DNA of 24,234 nt from a virus. The notes below the pieces were generated by a model. The model ran no database searches, was not told where the DNA came from, and saw nothing but the letters and a program-made list of their open reading frames with translations. The first letter of the stretch is position 1. Every line of letters starts with the position of its first letter. This document shows positions 16,868 through 24,234 of the stretch, piece after piece. A program made the translations under genes and the position numbers. The stretch is from IMG/VR virus record IMGVR_UViG_3300000117_000245, positions 1-24,234 of that record, one strand, 5' to 3'.

Positions 16868-17136
16868 CATCTTCTCCTATTGCTAACTATTTTAAAAAAA
16901 GTTTCTGCATACGCATCTTCATTATCCTTAATAAACGAATGATGTTTTCTGCATAATGTTATACCGTTATTGGGATGAAAACGTAACCCTGGAAAATCAC
17001 TCCACCTTTTTATATGATGTACTTGTAATTGTTTTTTCATATTACACCCTGGCCACTGACATGTATGATTGTCTAATTTTTTGACCTGTTTTCTCCATTG
17101 TTTATATTGTGGATCTTTATAATTTCTATACATCAT
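16867..17136 (-). CDS. HNH endonuclease, packaging-associated (89 aa)
   Basis: Compact HNH fold: Cys26-x4-Cys31 (CQWPGC), His40-His41 (VHHIK), Asn56/57 (PNNGITLC), Cys62 and His65-His66 (CRKHH). The four cysteine/histidine zinc ligands and the catalytic His are present. In many cos phages a small HNH protein encoded beside the terminase genes stimulates terminase cutting; the position here, between probable terS and terL, fits that role better than homing. Two candidate starts, ATG 17136 and ATG 17133, overlap the end of the upstream gene by about 10 bp, so translation is coupled. It could be a self-splicing or homing remnant, but it interrupts nothing visible. Confidence 0.85.
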   Translation of the reverse strand: MMYRNYKDPQYKQWRKQVKKLDNHTCQWPGCNMKKQLQVHHIKRWSDFPGLRFHPNNGITLCRKHHSFIKDNEDAYAETFFKIVSNRRR

Positions 17137-17932
17137 CTGGTGTTAAAAAGGGTTTGTCTACAATATCATTTGCATAAGTATGGTATTCTGTTAATTTTTC
17201 TCTACTTTTTTCTGTAGCCATACTTAAAATTTCCATTTGCCTGCCCTCCTTCTCTCTAATCTCTTCATCTTCCAACATCCGAATCAATCCCACCCATGAT
17301 GATTTACCATCCTCAATACGTTTAATACGCTGTTCACGTGTCGCCTTTAAATCTTTGCTAATCTTCTGCTGTTCATTTAAAAGTTTGGTATACTCGTTCG
17401 TGTAGGAGCTAATACTGTTTCTTGCAAAACTTAATTGAGTTTCTAGATTAGTAAGTTTCGCCGTGTCCCTATCTTCTTCTGCCAAGCTATATTCAAAGTC
17501 TACTTGCTTCTGTAGCTTCTCTGTATCTGCTATATGTCTTTTGCGTTCTTTCATTGAACGATTGATTAAAATGTCAATAGTGATAAACTGTTTAATTTGT
17601 AATTCTTCTGCAGGAAGTACGTCCTCACGAAATTGTTTTACTAAATTAATCCATGTATTTTCAAAATATTCTAATTCTCCACTTTCAGCATCAAATTGTC
17701 TAGTTATTTCATTCCAAAAGCTTTTACTGTGTAGTTTATTTTTAAGGGTGTCATAACCTTCAGGATCATTCATATACTCCAATTTAGATTCAGATATATA
17801 TCTTTTGATTGGTGCAGGAGTACGGTTTAAGTGGGTGGCAATTTGTTTAATATCTAATTTATTAAAATTATCTCTTATATACTCTTCTTCATCTAGAGAT
17901 AGCTGTCCACGCTTCTTAGGTATCTTGTTCAT
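17126..17932 (-). CDS. Probable terminase small subunit (268 aa)
   Basis: Residues ~10-50 form a helix-turn-helix (LDEEEYIRDNFNKLDIKQIA, then HLNRTPAPIKRYI), followed by ~180 residues of charged helices likely to form coiled coil (EKLQKQVDFEYSLAEEDRD, then TNLETQLSF and LNEQQKISKDLKATREQRIKR). N-terminal DNA binding plus central helical oligomerisation is the plan of terminase small subunits, and the gene is two places upstream of terL. It overlaps the sigma factor gene by 17 bp and the HNH gene by 11 bp. The HTH resembles that of the 72-residue protein at 18742. The name is inferred from architecture and position, not from a recognised TerS family. Confidence 0.6.
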   Translation of the reverse strand: MNKIPKKRGQLSLDEEEYIRDNFNKLDIKQIATHLNRTPAPIKRYISESKLEYMNDPEGYDTLKNKLHSKSFWNEITRQFDAESGELEYFENTWINLVKQFREDVLPAEELQIKQFITIDILINRSMKERKRHIADTEKLQKQVDFEYSLAEEDRDTAKLTNLETQLSFARNSISSYTNEYTKLLNEQQKISKDLKATREQRIKRIEDGKSSWVGLIRMLEDEEIREKEGRQMEILSMATEKSREKLTEYHTYANDIVDKPFLTPDDV

Positions 17933-18557
17933 TTTCGTAGTGTTGTGTTAGGATAGTTTGGATTATACTAATAACTTTCTTCTGATCGTTTTTGGTAATT
18001 TTATCTCCATGTCGTAATTTTAAATATAGGTCACGATATTGGGTAGGCATTTTAATATCTATTATATTTAAAACCTCAGTATTGTCAACTATATCTTCTA
18101 CATCTAAGGATTTACTATGACTAGGAGTGTTCTCTATGTCCACAGGCTTCATTATGTTTTTCTTGGCGTTGTTCCTTATGTACCATGTGTTGTAAAGTTC
18201 ACAATCGTTTCTATTACTAAACTCTGTACACATGCTCTGACTTTTTTTACAATGTTGGTCGAAAAAAGGACAGGTATTGCAGGGAACATCTGGTCTCTGA
18301 TAATGGTCTCTTTTATAATTAAATAATCTGTTTCTTACATGCGTCCATAAGAAGTTCTCTAATGGTCTGCTGGAGTCATAGCGTTTTAAGCCTTCTATAG
18401 CAAATATAGCGGCTTGTTGTTTCATATCTTCAAAAGTATGATATCCAAATTTAAATTTATTACCTAATCGTCTACTTATATTATCTAATACTTCTAAAAA
18501 TTCTGTTTCGCTTACATTATTCGGTAGTGTGTTCTTCTTCGTCTTCTTTTTGCTCAT
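17916..18557 (-). CDS. RNA polymerase sigma factor, late (gp55-like), with Cys cluster (213 aa)
   Basis: Residues ~38-88 resemble sigma region 2: YHTFEDMKQQAAIFAIEG, KRYDSSRPLENFLWTHVRNR and LFNYKRDHY, i.e. helices for -10 recognition and polymerase binding with the usual (P/N)-x-x-(F/Y)-x-x-x-x-(I/V)-x-x-R pattern. T4-type late sigma factors keep mainly this region. Directly after it is a cysteine cluster, Cys93, 96, 103, 110 and 119 (CNTCPFFDQHC onward), able to bind zinc; this is not part of ordinary sigma factors. The C-terminal third is helical and could hold a short region 4 or a clamp contact. It is the second gene of the leftward operon, from a host-type promoter, so it would be made first and then switch on late promoters. 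Confidence 0.7.
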   Translation of the reverse strand: MSKKKTKKNTLPNNVSETEFLEVLDNISRRLGNKFKFGYHTFEDMKQQAAIFAIEGLKRYDSSRPLENFLWTHVRNRLFNYKRDHYQRPDVPCNTCPFFDQHCKKSQSMCTEFSNRNDCELYNTWYIRNNAKKNIMKPVDIENTPSHSKSLDVEDIVDNTEVLNIIDIKMPTQYRDLYLKLRHGDKITKNDQKKVISIIQTILTQHYENEQDT

Positions 18558-18663
18558 CTAGCAGCTCGTTGATGCACTTTCCTTGAGATTTTTCTAGGTC
18601 CTCTGAAACATCCAAACTGGCACAAGCTTTTACATTTAATGTAGAGTCAATTGGTTTACTCAT
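18517..18663 (-). CDS. Small acidic protein (48 aa), first gene of the leftward operon
   Basis: ATG 18663 has a near-perfect ribosome site (AAGGAG, 5 nt before ATG). The protein starts MSKPIDSTLNVKACASLDVS and ends in an acidic run (DEQKEDEEEHTTE). It has no membrane segment or known motif. It overlaps the sigma factor start by 41 bp in another frame, so the ribosome site and overlap support expression and coupling. Function unknown; it could modulate the sigma factor it is coupled to, by position only. Confidence 0.7.
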   Translation of the reverse strand: MSKPIDSTLNVKACASLDVSEDLEKSQGKCINELLDEQKEDEEEHTTE

Positions 18664-18672
18664 CTTTGCTCC

Positions 18673-18700
18673 TTGCAAAAAACGGTGTATCTAGTATTAT
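18673..18700 (+). promoter_or_regulatory. Divergent promoter for the 72-aa HTH gene
   Basis: TTGCAA (18673-18678), 16-bp spacer, TATTAT (18695-18700), about 41 bp before the ATG at 18742. It overlaps the leftward promoter, so the two may compete. The hexamers are imperfect. Confidence 0.45.
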
Positions 18701-18726
18701 AGTATTAAGATATACACATTTGTCAA
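18696..18726 (-). promoter_or_regulatory. Sigma-70-type promoter for the leftward late operon
   Basis: On the minus strand TTGACA (18726-18721) is followed after 19 bp by TATAAT (18701-18696); an overlapping TACTAT at 16-bp spacing (18704-18699) is an alternative -10. It sits 33 bp before the 18663 start. The 19-bp spacing is long, so strength is uncertain. Confidence 0.6.
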
Positions 18727-18741
18727 TAAGGATCTATTAAA

Positions 18742-18960
18742 ATGGCTAACTATAAGAGATGGAGTAATGCAGAAAAGGAATTCATTAGAGAGAATTGCGG
18801 GACATGTAGTGACAAACAAATAGCTATAAGAATGGGGGAAATTAGTGGAGAGAAAATAACGTCGGACATGATAAGACAACAGAGACGAAAGATGCAAGTG
18901 ATTAAAAAGAAAGGAAGACCCAAGAAAAAGGATATCATTACTAATACGGAAAACGGTTAA
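18742..18960 (+). CDS. Small helix-turn-helix DNA-binding protein (72 aa)
   Basis: Begins MANYKRWSNAEKEFIRENCG; residues ~7-50 form a Myb/SANT-like three-helix DNA-binding domain (W-S-N-A-E-x-x-F-I-R, then DKQIAIRMGEISG, then SDMIRQQRRKM), followed by a basic tail with GRPKKK, an AT-hook-like stretch. Ribosome site AAGGA 9 nt before ATG. It is the first gene of the rightward arm and faces the sigma factor operon across a shared promoter region, the classical position for a phage regulator. The HTH resembles the N-terminus of the probable small terminase. Candidate regulator of the divergent promoters or of the CGATAA promoter family; the target is not shown by sequence. Confidence 0.7.
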   Translation: MANYKRWSNAEKEFIRENCGTCSDKQIAIRMGEISGEKITSDMIRQQRRKMQVIKKKGRPKKKDIITNTENG

Positions 18961-18969
18961 TTTAATATA

Positions 18970-19023
18970 GGGGGTCGGATTGTGTCTACACCACCCCCGC
19001 TTATTGAGACTGAATCTCAATAA
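18970..19023 (+). terminator. Two consecutive hairpins after the HTH gene
   Basis: GGGGGT (18970-18975) pairs with ACCCCC (18993-18998), and immediately after it a perfect 9-bp stem TTATTGAGA / TCTCAATAA (19001-19009 with 19015-19023) closes the loop CTGAA. No T-run follows, so these are not standard rho-independent terminators; they may stabilise the transcript end or insulate the next promoter. Confidence 0.45.
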
Positions 19024-19067
19024 CGATAGCAAAATGAAAAAACCCCCATACTGTACATAAGTGTACT

Positions 19068-19086
19068 ATCTAAACCTATCAGGCAG
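19068..19086 (+). repeat. Intergenic element copy A (degenerate CTAAACCTATCAGG)
   Basis: ATCTAAACCTATCAGGCAG matches positions 21212-21230 at 13 of 19 bases; all six differences are transitions. It is preceded by a GTACA-TAAG-TGTAC hairpin (19053-19066), as copy B is preceded by the palindrome GTACATATGTAC. See the copies at 21211 and 23562. Confidence 0.5.
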
Positions 19087-19120
19087 AAATATCTCAAAAT
19101 GATACACGATATCATGTGTG

Positions 19121-19165
19121 TTGCAAAATGCAATGCAAAATGCTACACTATTTGCAAAATGCAAA
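19121..19165 (+). promoter_or_regulatory. Cluster of LuxO-like binding sites (TTGCA-AAA-TGCAA)
   Basis: Two exact 13-bp inverted repeats TTGCAAAATGCAA at 19121-19133 and 19152-19164 (the second extends to 6-bp arms, 19151-19165) and an 11/13 copy between them at 19133-19145. Centres are at about -128, -116 and -97 from the predicted sigma-54 start site, normal for an upstream activator site. The sequence fits the LuxO consensus TTGCA-W3-TGCAA as I recall it from Vibrio qrr promoters. A weaker 11/13 match lies at 19027-19039. Another NtrC-class activator with a similar site is possible. Confidence 0.75.
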
Positions 19166-19228
19166 TCATGTCTTAAAATGAGAATCACAATATACCTATA
19201 AAACAAGTATAAAAAATATTTTAGCGAA

Positions 19229-19244
19229 TGGCACGATACTTGCA
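19229..19244 (+). promoter_or_regulatory. Sigma-54 (RpoN) promoter
   Basis: TGGCACGATACTTGCA matches the sigma-54 consensus TGGCACG-R-N3-TTGC-W at every defined position, with the invariant GG (19230-19231) and GC (19242-19243) at the required distance. Predicted start site near 19255, 42 nt before the zinc-ribbon ATG. An AT-rich stretch (19182-19228) between the activator sites and the promoter could help DNA bending. Confidence 0.85.
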
Positions 19245-19296
19245 TATATATATTACCAGTAAAGAAAACTTTTTAACCCTTTAAGGAATTACAATT

Positions 19297-19476
19297 ATGA
19301 GTAACAATTTTTCAATCGAATACCGAACTGATTGCTGTGGAGCATACGTTGAAAACGATGCTGACATCTGCCCTACTTGCTACGAACACTGTGAAGTGAT
19401 CGAAGATAGGGTCGATTATGACGGTTCTGACGACGTTCACTTTCAAGCTAGTCTGGATTTTTATGGGGCGGGCTAA
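19297..19476 (+). CDS. Small zinc-ribbon protein under sigma-54/LuxO-like control (59 aa)
   Basis: Starts MSNNFSIEYRTDCCGAYVEN and contains Cys13-Cys14, Cys25-x2-Cys28 (CPTC) and Cys32, a one-zinc ribbon of the CCG...CPxC type common in small phage proteins. The rest is acidic. Ribosome site AAGGA 9 nt before ATG 19297. It is the only gene between the sigma-54 promoter (19229-19244) and the next promoter (near 19485), so it is the direct output of the quorum-sensing-type promoter. The stop codon lies in a GGGG/CCCC hairpin (GGGGCGGGCTAAAGTCCCC, 19465-19483) that may end the message. Function unknown; zinc ribbons of this size usually bind a protein or nucleic acid. Confidence 0.75.
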   Translation: MSNNFSIEYRTDCCGAYVENDADICPTCYEHCEVIEDRVDYDGSDDVHFQASLDFYGAG

Positions 19477-19484
19477 AGTCCCCC

Positions 19485-19513
19485 TTGCAATTTGTCGATA
19501 ATTATATTAGACT
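19485..19513 (+). promoter_or_regulatory. Promoter of the CGATAA family (copy 1)
   Basis: TTGCAA (19485-19490), CGATAA (19496-19501), 6 bp, TAGACT (19508-19513); total spacer 17 bp. It lies 33 bp before the HNH gene. The -10 is poor, but the CGATAA-N6 geometry matches three other promoters in this arm. Confidence 0.5.
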
Positions 19514-19546
19514 CTGATTATTCACCACCATTTAGGACACCACATT

Positions 19547-19987
19547 ATGAGACGTAAAAAACCAATTCCTGCAAGTCTGCGATTACAAGTGATCGACCGT
19601 GACAATGGCCGTTGCCGTGCTTGTGGTATCGGTGACCGTGATGCCCTGCAAGCCGACCACATTGTGCCGGAGTCGAAGGGTGGCGAAACAAGTCTCGACA
19701 ATCTGCAAGCCCTGTGCGGCGTGTGTAATAATCGCAAACAAAACACCGTAGTAGAATTGCCAATCCGTCCTAGTGTCGATGGATTCGGTGACTATGCTGA
19801 CGTAATGCAAGCAAGGACAGACTTCTTGGAAACACTTGCTGATGTCAGACAGTCGGAGATTGTCAGGCTTACAGCAATCGTCAAGGCATGGCGTCAAGCC
19901 AATGTCAGGGGTTGCATCATCCGTAACCGTCTGGAGAAAATGGTTGACAAGCGTAAGGTCGAAGGTATACTAAAGGCAAGCCGATAA
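19547..19987 (+). CDS. HNH endonuclease (146 aa)
   Basis: Classical HNH with a four-cysteine zinc site: Cys23-x2-Cys26 (CRACG), Asp37-His38 (ADHIVPESKGG), Asn52 (DNLQALC), Cys57-x2-Cys60 and Asn61 (CGVCNNRK). All catalytic and zinc residues are present. The C-terminal ~80 residues are helical and basic, likely a DNA-binding extension. The gene is clearly richer in G+C than its neighbours (a sampled 60-bp line is 53% against 37% at 20821-20880), suggesting a recent arrival, as for free-standing homing nucleases. It is followed after 9 bp by a membrane peptide gene with the ribosome site AAGGAGG. Confidence 0.9.
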   Translation: MRRKKPIPASLRLQVIDRDNGRCRACGIGDRDALQADHIVPESKGGETSLDNLQALCGVCNNRKQNTVVELPIRPSVDGFGDYADVMQARTDFLETLADVRQSEIVRLTAIVKAWRQANVRGCIIRNRLEKMVDKRKVEGILKASR

Positions 19988-19996
19988 GGAGGCATC

Positions 19997-20089
19997 ATGA
20001 AAGAGTCAGATCAAGAATTGTTGTTGATTGTTATTGTGTTGTGTGTTATTGTAGTGTCAGTGTTTTACAGTTACACACCAATTTGTTAA
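19997..20089 (+). CDS. Single-span membrane peptide (30 aa)
   Basis: MKESDQELLLIVIVLCVIVV and then SVFYSYTPIC: a short acidic head followed by a membrane segment of about 18-20 residues. Strong ribosome site AAGGAGG 4 nt before the ATG and tight packing with its neighbours support it as a real gene despite its size. Function unknown; peptides of this form in phages may act in lysis control or superinfection exclusion. Confidence 0.65.
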   Translation: MKESDQELLLIVIVLCVIVVSVFYSYTPIC

Positions 20090-20098
20090 GGAGTCAAG

Positions 20099-20233
20099 AT
20101 GTTTACAGAGCAAGAAAAAATGGAAATGATTATTGAGGGGATACGGAATGGTGATGTGTTTATGAAGGACGGTATAGCAGTCGATGAGTACGGTGACCCT
20201 ATATTTGAGGAGGATGCAGATGCCCAGAACTAA
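20099..20233 (+). CDS. Hypothetical small acidic protein (44 aa)
   Basis: MFTEQEKMEMIIEGIRNGDV and on to an acidic end. The ribosome site AAGGAG, 5 nt from ATG, is ideal. It overlaps the next gene by 14 bp in another frame, and its 3' end holds that gene's ribosome site (GAGGAGG). No known domain. Confidence 0.65.
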   Translation: MFTEQEKMEMIIEGIRNGDVFMKDGIAVDEYGDPIFEEDADAQN

Positions 20234-22713: not shown

Positions 22714-23016
22714 ATGACACACAGAGAATTGACTAAATTAGTTCACGGTAAAACTTGCAGATTAGAACGTAAGGTAGCAAACAATACATACGCTAGGATT
22801 CAGCACGATGGGAGCATTGCTGTTCGCTTGTACAGTACGGACGTAGTAACAATCCATCCCGACAATAGCGTTACGCTGAGACATGGTGGACATAAAACAG
22901 ACACAACAAAAAACAGAATCAATAGGTTTAGTCCTTTTTATGTACGCCAAGAAAATTGGGAATGGTATGTAAATGGGATTACACCTTTTGAGGACGGAAT
23001 GACGATTAAGGCTTGA
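22714..23016 (+). CDS. Conserved-type phage hypothetical protein (100 aa)
   Basis: Starts MTHRELTKLVHGKTCRLERK and contains a pattern I recognise from many phage proteins of unknown function: an AVRLYSTDVVTIHPDNSVTL segment, a Gly-Gly turn, TKNRINRF and near the end WEWYVNGITPFEDG. Mostly beta with a small-barrel feel; no enzymatic motif. Ribosome site AGGAG before ATG. Monocistronic: it has its own promoter (22657), and its stop codon lies inside the -35 box of the next promoter. Confidence 0.7.
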   Translation: MTHRELTKLVHGKTCRLERKVANNTYARIQHDGSIAVRLYSTDVVTIHPDNSVTLRHGGHKTDTTKNRINRFSPFYVRQENWEWYVNGITPFEDGMTIKA

Positions 23017-23687: not shown

Positions 23688-24234
23688 ATGAAATTCTCAG
23701 CCGCCAATACTAAACTCAAGAAATTATACAAGCTCGCCTCTACTGTGCTCAAGCGGTGGTTAGGCCAGAAGATAGGACGGTCTGCCGCCAAAGTTTATTC
23801 TTTCGATATTTTGTCGGGGGTAGACTGTCCTTTCGCTTTTCTGTGCAAGTCTCAGGCAGAAGAACAAGCCGATGGTAGTCGCAGAATTAAGGACGGCCCC
23901 AATACTAAATTCCGTTGCTTCTCTGCTAGTCAAGAAGTATTGTTCACCAATACATACAAAAGTCGCAAGCGTAATCACGACGCTATTCACGCATTAGCAA
24001 CGTCCGACGATATGGCAGACGCATTGTGTGCAGCGTTACCGAAGGATTGTCGTGTCGTGCGTATTCATGTGTCTGGTGATATGTTTAGTCACAAGTATTT
24101 CATGGCATGGATCAAAGTCTCAGAACGCAACCCCGACGTTTTATTCTATGCGTACACTAAGTCTCTCACGTATTGGGTTCGTAGTCGTGACCTTGTGCCG
24201 ACTAATCTTGTTCTGACTGCATCATACGGTGGTC
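23688..24234 (+). CDS. gp88-like phage protein (partial, first 182 aa)
   Basis: Starts MKFSAANTKLKKLYKLASTV with GGAG 9 nt before ATG, and is still open at the right edge. Residues 38-90 hold SFDILSGVDCPFAFLC, a KDGPNTKFRCFSASQE segment and FTNTYKSRKRNHDA. Further on are RIHVSGDMFSHKYFMAW, FYAYTKSL and LVLTASYGG. These blocks match my memory of the gp88-type family of phage proteins (LSG-x-x-CP near the start, then FRC-x-A-S-Q-E, VSGD-x-F and Y-x-YTKS). Three cysteines (47, 53, 77) plus alternating strands give a barrel-like look reminiscent of iron-sulfur enzymes, which I cannot confirm. Codon use is richer in G+C than in neighbouring small genes. Function unknown. Confidence 0.7.
   Translation, partial: MKFSAANTKLKKLYKLASTVLKRWLGQKIGRSAAKVYSFDILSGVDCPFAFLCKSQAEEQADGSRRIKDGPNTKFRCFSASQEVLFTNTYKSRKRNHDAIHALATSDDMADALCAALPKDCRVVRIHVSGDMFSHKYFMAWIKVSERNPDVLFYAYTKSLTYWVRSRDLVPTNLVLTASYGG

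Follow-up and report, generated by a model that had tools for sequence, protein, structure and literature searches.

The closest described counterparts of the element analysed here are the LuxO-activated qrr promoters of the Vibrionaceae, in which at least two TTGCA-W3-TGCAA sites stand roughly 75-110 bp before a sigma-54 core of the TGGCAC type. The LuxO consensus has been printed as TTGCAW3TGCAA (PMC11443567), and the DNA-binding domain of LuxO is treated in PMC11407668. The layout of sites and core shared with the qrr promoters is counted here in favour of a sigma-54 promoter, whereas the element differs from them in being carried by a phage, in having a protein gene as its output and in the half-site of its clade, which is TWGCA and not TYGCA. 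In Vibrio fischeri, a second activator, SypG, acts via the LuxO sites of qrr1 (PMC10162802), so the activator cannot be told from the site. This promoter resembles ours in that an NtrC-type activator uses one set of sites to act on a sigma-54 promoter, but it is located on a bacterial chromosome and its output is a small RNA. A phage is also connected to this system: the lysis-lysogeny outcome of vibriophage VP882 depends on host LuxO~P and the Qrr RNAs (PMC11315295); however, VP882 is temperate and has its own VqmA receptor, and a phage promoter combining LuxO sites with a sigma-54 core is not described in the abstract of that article. Additionally, TTGCA-type sites before a TGGCAC core, as here, belong to other bacterial systems of the NtrC type, and six loci outside the Vibrionaceae contain an NtrC-type gene; these differ in serving bacterial genes, in their mostly TTGCA half-sites and in having a single clear site. 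Judged by title and the start of the abstract, no comparable phage promoter was recognized among the matches listed from the open-access literature on sigma-54 and phage promoters, in which few subscription papers are represented.

The window, that is the whole stretch of DNA that was analysed, is a complete IMG/VR record of 24,234 bases. The sequence-only reading had reported two exact 13-mers, an 11/13 copy between them and a perfect sigma-54 core, and all of these were confirmed to the base (Table 1). The -24 GG and the -12 GC match perfectly in the TGGCAC-N5-TTGC spacing, the GC element of sigma-54 promoters being taken as -12 in start-site prediction. The second site starts 12 bp past the start of the first, with an overlap of one base, and the three sites are located about 91-134 bp before the predicted start, where roughly 80-150 bp is expected.

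Table 1. Positions of the promoter element and of the neighbouring genes in the window.
Feature	Position	Strand	Remark
Activator site 1, TTGCAAAATGCAA	19121..19133	+	starts 108 bp upstream of the core; position retained across 8 aligned relatives, the window among them
Activator site 2, ATGCAAAATGCTA	19133..19145	+	-96; 11/13 match to sites 1 and 3
Activator site 3, TTGCAAAATGCAA	19152..19164	+	-77
Sigma-54 core, TGGCACGATACTTGCA	19229..19244	+	GG 19230-19231, GC 19242-19243; kept in relatives
Predicted transcription start	19255	+	from the sequence, with GC 19242-19243 counted as -12
AAGGA, likely ribosome-binding site	19283..19287	+	from the sequence; followed by ATG at 19297
59-aa zinc-ribbon-like protein (DCCG...CxxCxEHCE)	19297..19476	+	first gene past the promoter
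HNH endonuclease	19547..19987	+	second downstream gene; may share a transcript with the 59-aa gene
72-aa protein, weakly like D5-like transcriptional regulator (phrog_323)	18742..18960	+	upstream of the promoter
Sigma-like protein, clade marker	17916..18557	-	divergent neighbour; Sigma70_r2 match under the curated cut-off
268-aa protein of unknown function, clade marker	17126..17932	-	

The occurrence of this element by coincidence had been judged very unlikely, with about 0.003 cores expected by chance, and our calculation is in agreement. A first-order model of the window gives 0.0026 perfect cores on both strands and 0.05 exact TTGCA-N3-TGCAA sites, and the combination of two exact sites at most 130 bp upstream of a perfect core is expected about 8e-11 times if the positions are taken as independent, by which a chance origin is ruled out. 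Neither another exact TTGCA-N3-TGCAA nor another perfect TGGCACG-N4-TTGCW is present elsewhere in the window. The inverted repeat with up to two mismatches is not enriched in the window (15 found, 16.5 expected), thus the weight is carried by the exact sites clustered beside the core, together with their conservation. In G003, a relative of 123.6 kb, the sole TGGCAY-N5-TTGC core and the two exact TWGCA-W3-TGCWA sites share this one place, and looser core-like sequences are found at two further places.

Related phages were searched for the two motifs together, as had been proposed. Scanning viral contigs for the paired motif yielded 54 stretches, three of which (L003, L015, L035) also contain a perfect core; a search with 30 exact bases of the element retrieved the same three, which share 85-95% identity with the window over their long aligned pieces. 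The wider clade was reached via searches with the sigma-like protein and the 268-aa marker protein. L097 and L101, where the sigma-like protein is 64% identical, have a perfect core in the corresponding place. In eight loci (the window, L102, L103 and L105-L109) three GCA-N3-TGC sites stand at -107 to -111, -95 to -99 and -76 to -79, with a mismatch in certain sites of L105 and L106, and in the alignment of these eight the sites and the core are more conserved than the drifting linker. In seven of the eight the promoter is followed by the gene of a small orthologous CxxC protein, in which DCCG and CxxCxEHCE are invariant; L105 is the exception and has a different gene. At the place of site 3, TAGCAAAATGCAA is found in L331, L332 and L342 (the last one, IMGVR_UViG_2778261060_000011, is a close relative of the window), with TAGCA where the window has TTGCA; an activator site of the TAGCAAAATGCTA type is also carried by relatives of the window.

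Non-redundant cores of the clade that have one or more sites within 150 bp fill 46 rows, 39 of which have at least two sites, and by our tally the small protein follows 15 of the 46; part of these loci had been chosen for the motif. The clade loci, in which some contigs are counted twice, amount to 892 kb and contain TGGCAY-N5-TTGC 117 times and the reversed pattern not once. Certain contigs appear under several locus numbers (e.g. L097/L106, L101/L105), thus the core counts of the clade include repeats. A further 32 stretches comprise, by our tally, 14 loci encoding a clade marker, 4 known clade contigs, 8 which share the module as judged by eye and 6 others.

The same group was also recovered by the DNA motif alone, independently of any protein search. 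Scanning a genome collection of 84,980 species for the site plus the core gave 19 stretches, among them L198 (PBOB01000075.1), which is filed in a marine Acidiferrobacteraceae bin and is a contig of a phage from this group, its marker protein and sigma-like protein being 34% and 33% identical, respectively, to those of the window. In L198, TGTAGCATAATGCTACA stands ahead of two cores. The IMG/VR contig L252 equals L198 at 100% over the marker protein, while 25 other loci of the L198 group (L253-L277), 14 of which hold at least 2 kb of the early side, have neither core nor site. As a separate observation, TTATTGAGACTGAATCTCAATAA (window 19001-19023) and TTGAGACTCAGTCTCAATAA, which lies between the site and the core in L198, are alike.

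Concerning the product, it had been claimed that the output is a protein gene and that no Qrr-like RNA follows. Both points were borne out: the 59-aa reading frame follows the promoter, and there is no Rfam Qrr match in the window. The 59-aa protein matches zinc-ribbon families of Pfam below threshold only. Judged from its sequence, the element appears to be a real and conserved phage promoter with a protein as output, which is most likely dependent on sigma-54 and on an activator; the perfect core, the three upstream sites and their conservation in the clade all support this type of promoter.

The sigma factor and the activator were sought in the phages themselves. PF00158 (Sigma54_activat) has no match in the window or in 18 clade records, many of them fragments, while it matched in all 14 control genomes, a result which demonstrates sensitivity and not specificity; PF04552 (Sigma54_DBD) has no match in 19 clade records, many of which are fragments as well. 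Neither a phage-coded activator nor a phage-coded RpoN was therefore found in the searched records. The sigma-like gene is present in 154 of 160 clade loci, and the core in 40/57, 2/16 and 17/36 loci of three sets, counting the loci that span 2 kb or more of the early side. Since the sigma-like gene is kept without the core, and no RpoN or activator coded by the phage was found, the machinery reading the promoter is most likely that of the host. A phage protein reading the core should not persist where no core exists, so host sigma-54 is the simpler reader, and the cores would be retained where the host has sigma-54. A host possessing sigma-54, as had been suggested earlier, follows from the type of the promoter.

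On the evidence of the sequences we consider it probable (roughly 0.8) that this is an early promoter which host RpoN serves together with a LuxO/NtrC-like activator of the host. Host RNA polymerase with host RpoN would sit at 19229-19244 and start near 19255, and an NtrC/LuxO-type enhancer-binding protein of the host, recognizing approximately TGTWGCA-W3-TGCWACA, would bind the three sites within 19121-19164. The bound activator would open the promoter, and the 59-aa zinc-ribbon-like protein, perhaps the later genes too, would be made only while the activator is active in the cell. Binding, dependence on RpoN, early timing and switching by the state of the host are predicted features of this model.

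The alternative which survives best is a more specific one, namely a Vibrio-like host with LuxO~P as the activator and a gene made at low cell density. Both exact sites of the window are TTGCA-W3-TGCAA, and a Photobacterium qrr promoter located next to a luxO-like gene has their 13-mer as its site. Of 41 Vibrionaceae genomes, 35 contained Qrr RNAs, and the promoters of 25 out of 31 qrr loci (L222-L251, L193) were analysed, leaving out L236, L241-L244 and L246, which had no match to the Qrr pattern or repeated a counted promoter. The exact sites in these 25 are mostly 73-108 bp before the core, and by our tally, with one mismatch allowed, 13 of them contain two sites with the 12-bp spacing that sites 1 and 2 have here. 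On account of the qrr-like sequence and spacing and the shared Photobacterium 13-mer, the window sites may well be good LuxO sites. What the activator of the clade accepts would be indicated by the half-sites of the clade, and the clade consensus, TGTWGCA-W3-TGCWACA, is wider than that printed for LuxO in PMC11443567. The second position of the half-site is A in 31 of 70 phage half-sites, taken from 14 promoters which were all reached via protein searches except the window and L198, whereas the 74 qrr half-sites have T (58), C (15) or G (1) there and never A. The restriction of the qrr half-sites to TTGCA or TCGCA, without TAGCA, is not seen in the window, where site 2 ends in TGCTA. A larger, partly motif-selected set contains 98 TAGCA and 74 TTGCA; it is not a random sample, and it includes 18 malformed half-sites from sites through which the 150-bp edge ran.

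The motif was also found outside the Vibrionaceae. Among the 19 stretches from the genome collection it stands before cores in records of Spirochaetales, Desulfobulbales, Aminicenantes, Thermocrinis and gammaproteobacteria, among others, some of the 19 being inside coding sequence and possibly due to chance. An NtrC-type gene is present at 7 of the 19 loci, and those of the non-Vibrionaceae loci L181, L184, L189, L190, L194 and L199 share 35-38% identity with the LuxO of L193. Both the site and the core are present in the Thermocrinis record (L192), but the bin of this record (G043), which may be incomplete, shows no Sigma54_DBD match, a point against the motif being general. In the host scan the phage contig L198 alone had a full TGTAGCA-W3-TGCTACA site ahead of a core, and no bacterium did. 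These last two results also count against the promoter model with host RpoN and a host activator.

Searches with the phage proteins also count against a Vibrio-like host. No relative of the marker protein was detected in 329 Vibrionaceae genomes, where a lytic phage need not occur; in the positive control the bin containing L198 (G040) was retrieved, as the only one of 369 genomes of its class. Neither the sigma-like protein, the marker protein, its L198 relative nor the 59-aa protein has a relative in 50,697 phage records. The motif itself does not point to Vibrio, and the assignment to LuxO and Vibrio is possible, not favoured; as a complete explanation we regard it as unlikely. The sequence-only reading was thus upheld in part: the sigma-54 promoter and the protein output stood, but LuxO as the activator was not established and the Vibrio-like host was not supported.

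Other searches concerned the identity of the phage and its host. Neither the whole window nor 18700-20000 matched known phages, and the terminase matched 40 phage records, the best 20 of the 40 at 22-31% identity. Sigma54_DBD is present in G040, where the matches of site plus core are confined to the phage contig, and binning does not prove a host. A cyanophage was considered and rejected, PF00124 (psbA/psbD) being absent from 18 clade records, many of them fragments; a cyanobacterial control genome gave no Sigma54_DBD match. As a side observation, window 22714-23016 and 23688-24233 contain genes of the Kyano_Gp96 and GP88 families, and the best among the matches listed for the GP88-family gene are from Synechococcus phages at 34-41% identity, although the sigma-54 promoter argues against a cyanobacterial host.

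It is distinctly improbable that TGGCAY-N5-TTGC is the site of a phage protein, for instance of the sigma-like factor or of a dimeric regulator. In several relatives the cores are head to head, or run against the gene direction upstream of sigma-70-like promoters, an arrangement which a plain promoter role leaves unexplained and which we count against the sigma-54 reading. However, the distribution given above, a sigma-like gene in nearly all loci and cores in only a part of them, does not fit a phage-coded reader, and the window-type loci have a single core before a ribosome-binding site and a gene, with sites at a qrr-like distance. Very improbable, too, is that a sigma-70 promoter drives the gene and the sigma-54 elements are inactive remnants. 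Eleven sigma-70-like hexamer pairs are found in 18500-20200 against 4.8 in shuffles, one of them over site 3 (19152), and these were likewise counted against the sigma-54 reading; but that pair agrees with the pattern at 9 of 12 positions and has its first hexamer in common with the conserved site, and the conservation of sites and core exceeds that of the linker. That the sites are a decoy soaking up host activator or RpoN is scarcely credible, since, although tandem cores occur on unrelated large-phage contigs (e.g. nine on one strand, G015 2043-2444), one core with three sites in a 123.6-kb record, at a fixed place before a gene, is unlike a sponge.

Sigma-54-like cores were also observed in other arrangements. 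L130, L155, L098 and G022 (near 144.7 and 148.3 kb) carry many TGGCAY-N5-TTGC cores paired head-to-head or back-to-back, upstream of sigma-70-like early promoters and adjoining CCTTACGATATTGTAAGG palindromes. Cores opposing the early genes (L106 1609, L107 1848, L109 79, L119 2990, L137 2668, on the forward strand of each locus) share a common downstream start, TTTGCTrGCnGTC, with no evident gene, and possibly give a noncoding transcript. In G022 146144-146364 two divergent cores have one common cluster of three TWGCAAAATGCWA sites, and the leftward core has no nearby gene on its strand. Dense clusters of such cores are present in apparently unrelated large phages (G015 2043-2475, G016 77.4-81.5 kb, G017 51-63 kb, G021 18-40 kb), G015 having 10 cores in 12.4 kb and G017 having 20 in 63.8 kb, where the reversed pattern occurs 0-1 times; these four contigs were chosen for holding one such core.

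To our knowledge, sigma-54 promoters never fire without an activator which reports a sensed condition; an early gene placed behind one would tie part of the phage programme to a host signal. With host RpoN and a host activator reading the promoter, the phage would depend on this signal without encoding its own receptor. The motif TGTWGCA-W3-TGCWACA offers a handle for tracing the activator and, through the activator, the host. At even odds we would extend this to a broad uncultured clade of large phages, which would place an early, conserved zinc-ribbon-like protein under host sigma-54 promoters with a host activator of the LuxO/NtrC type that is itself under sensor control; the promoter would be gained and lost as the hosts change, and the infection programme may be partly gated by the state of the host, such as its density or nutrients.
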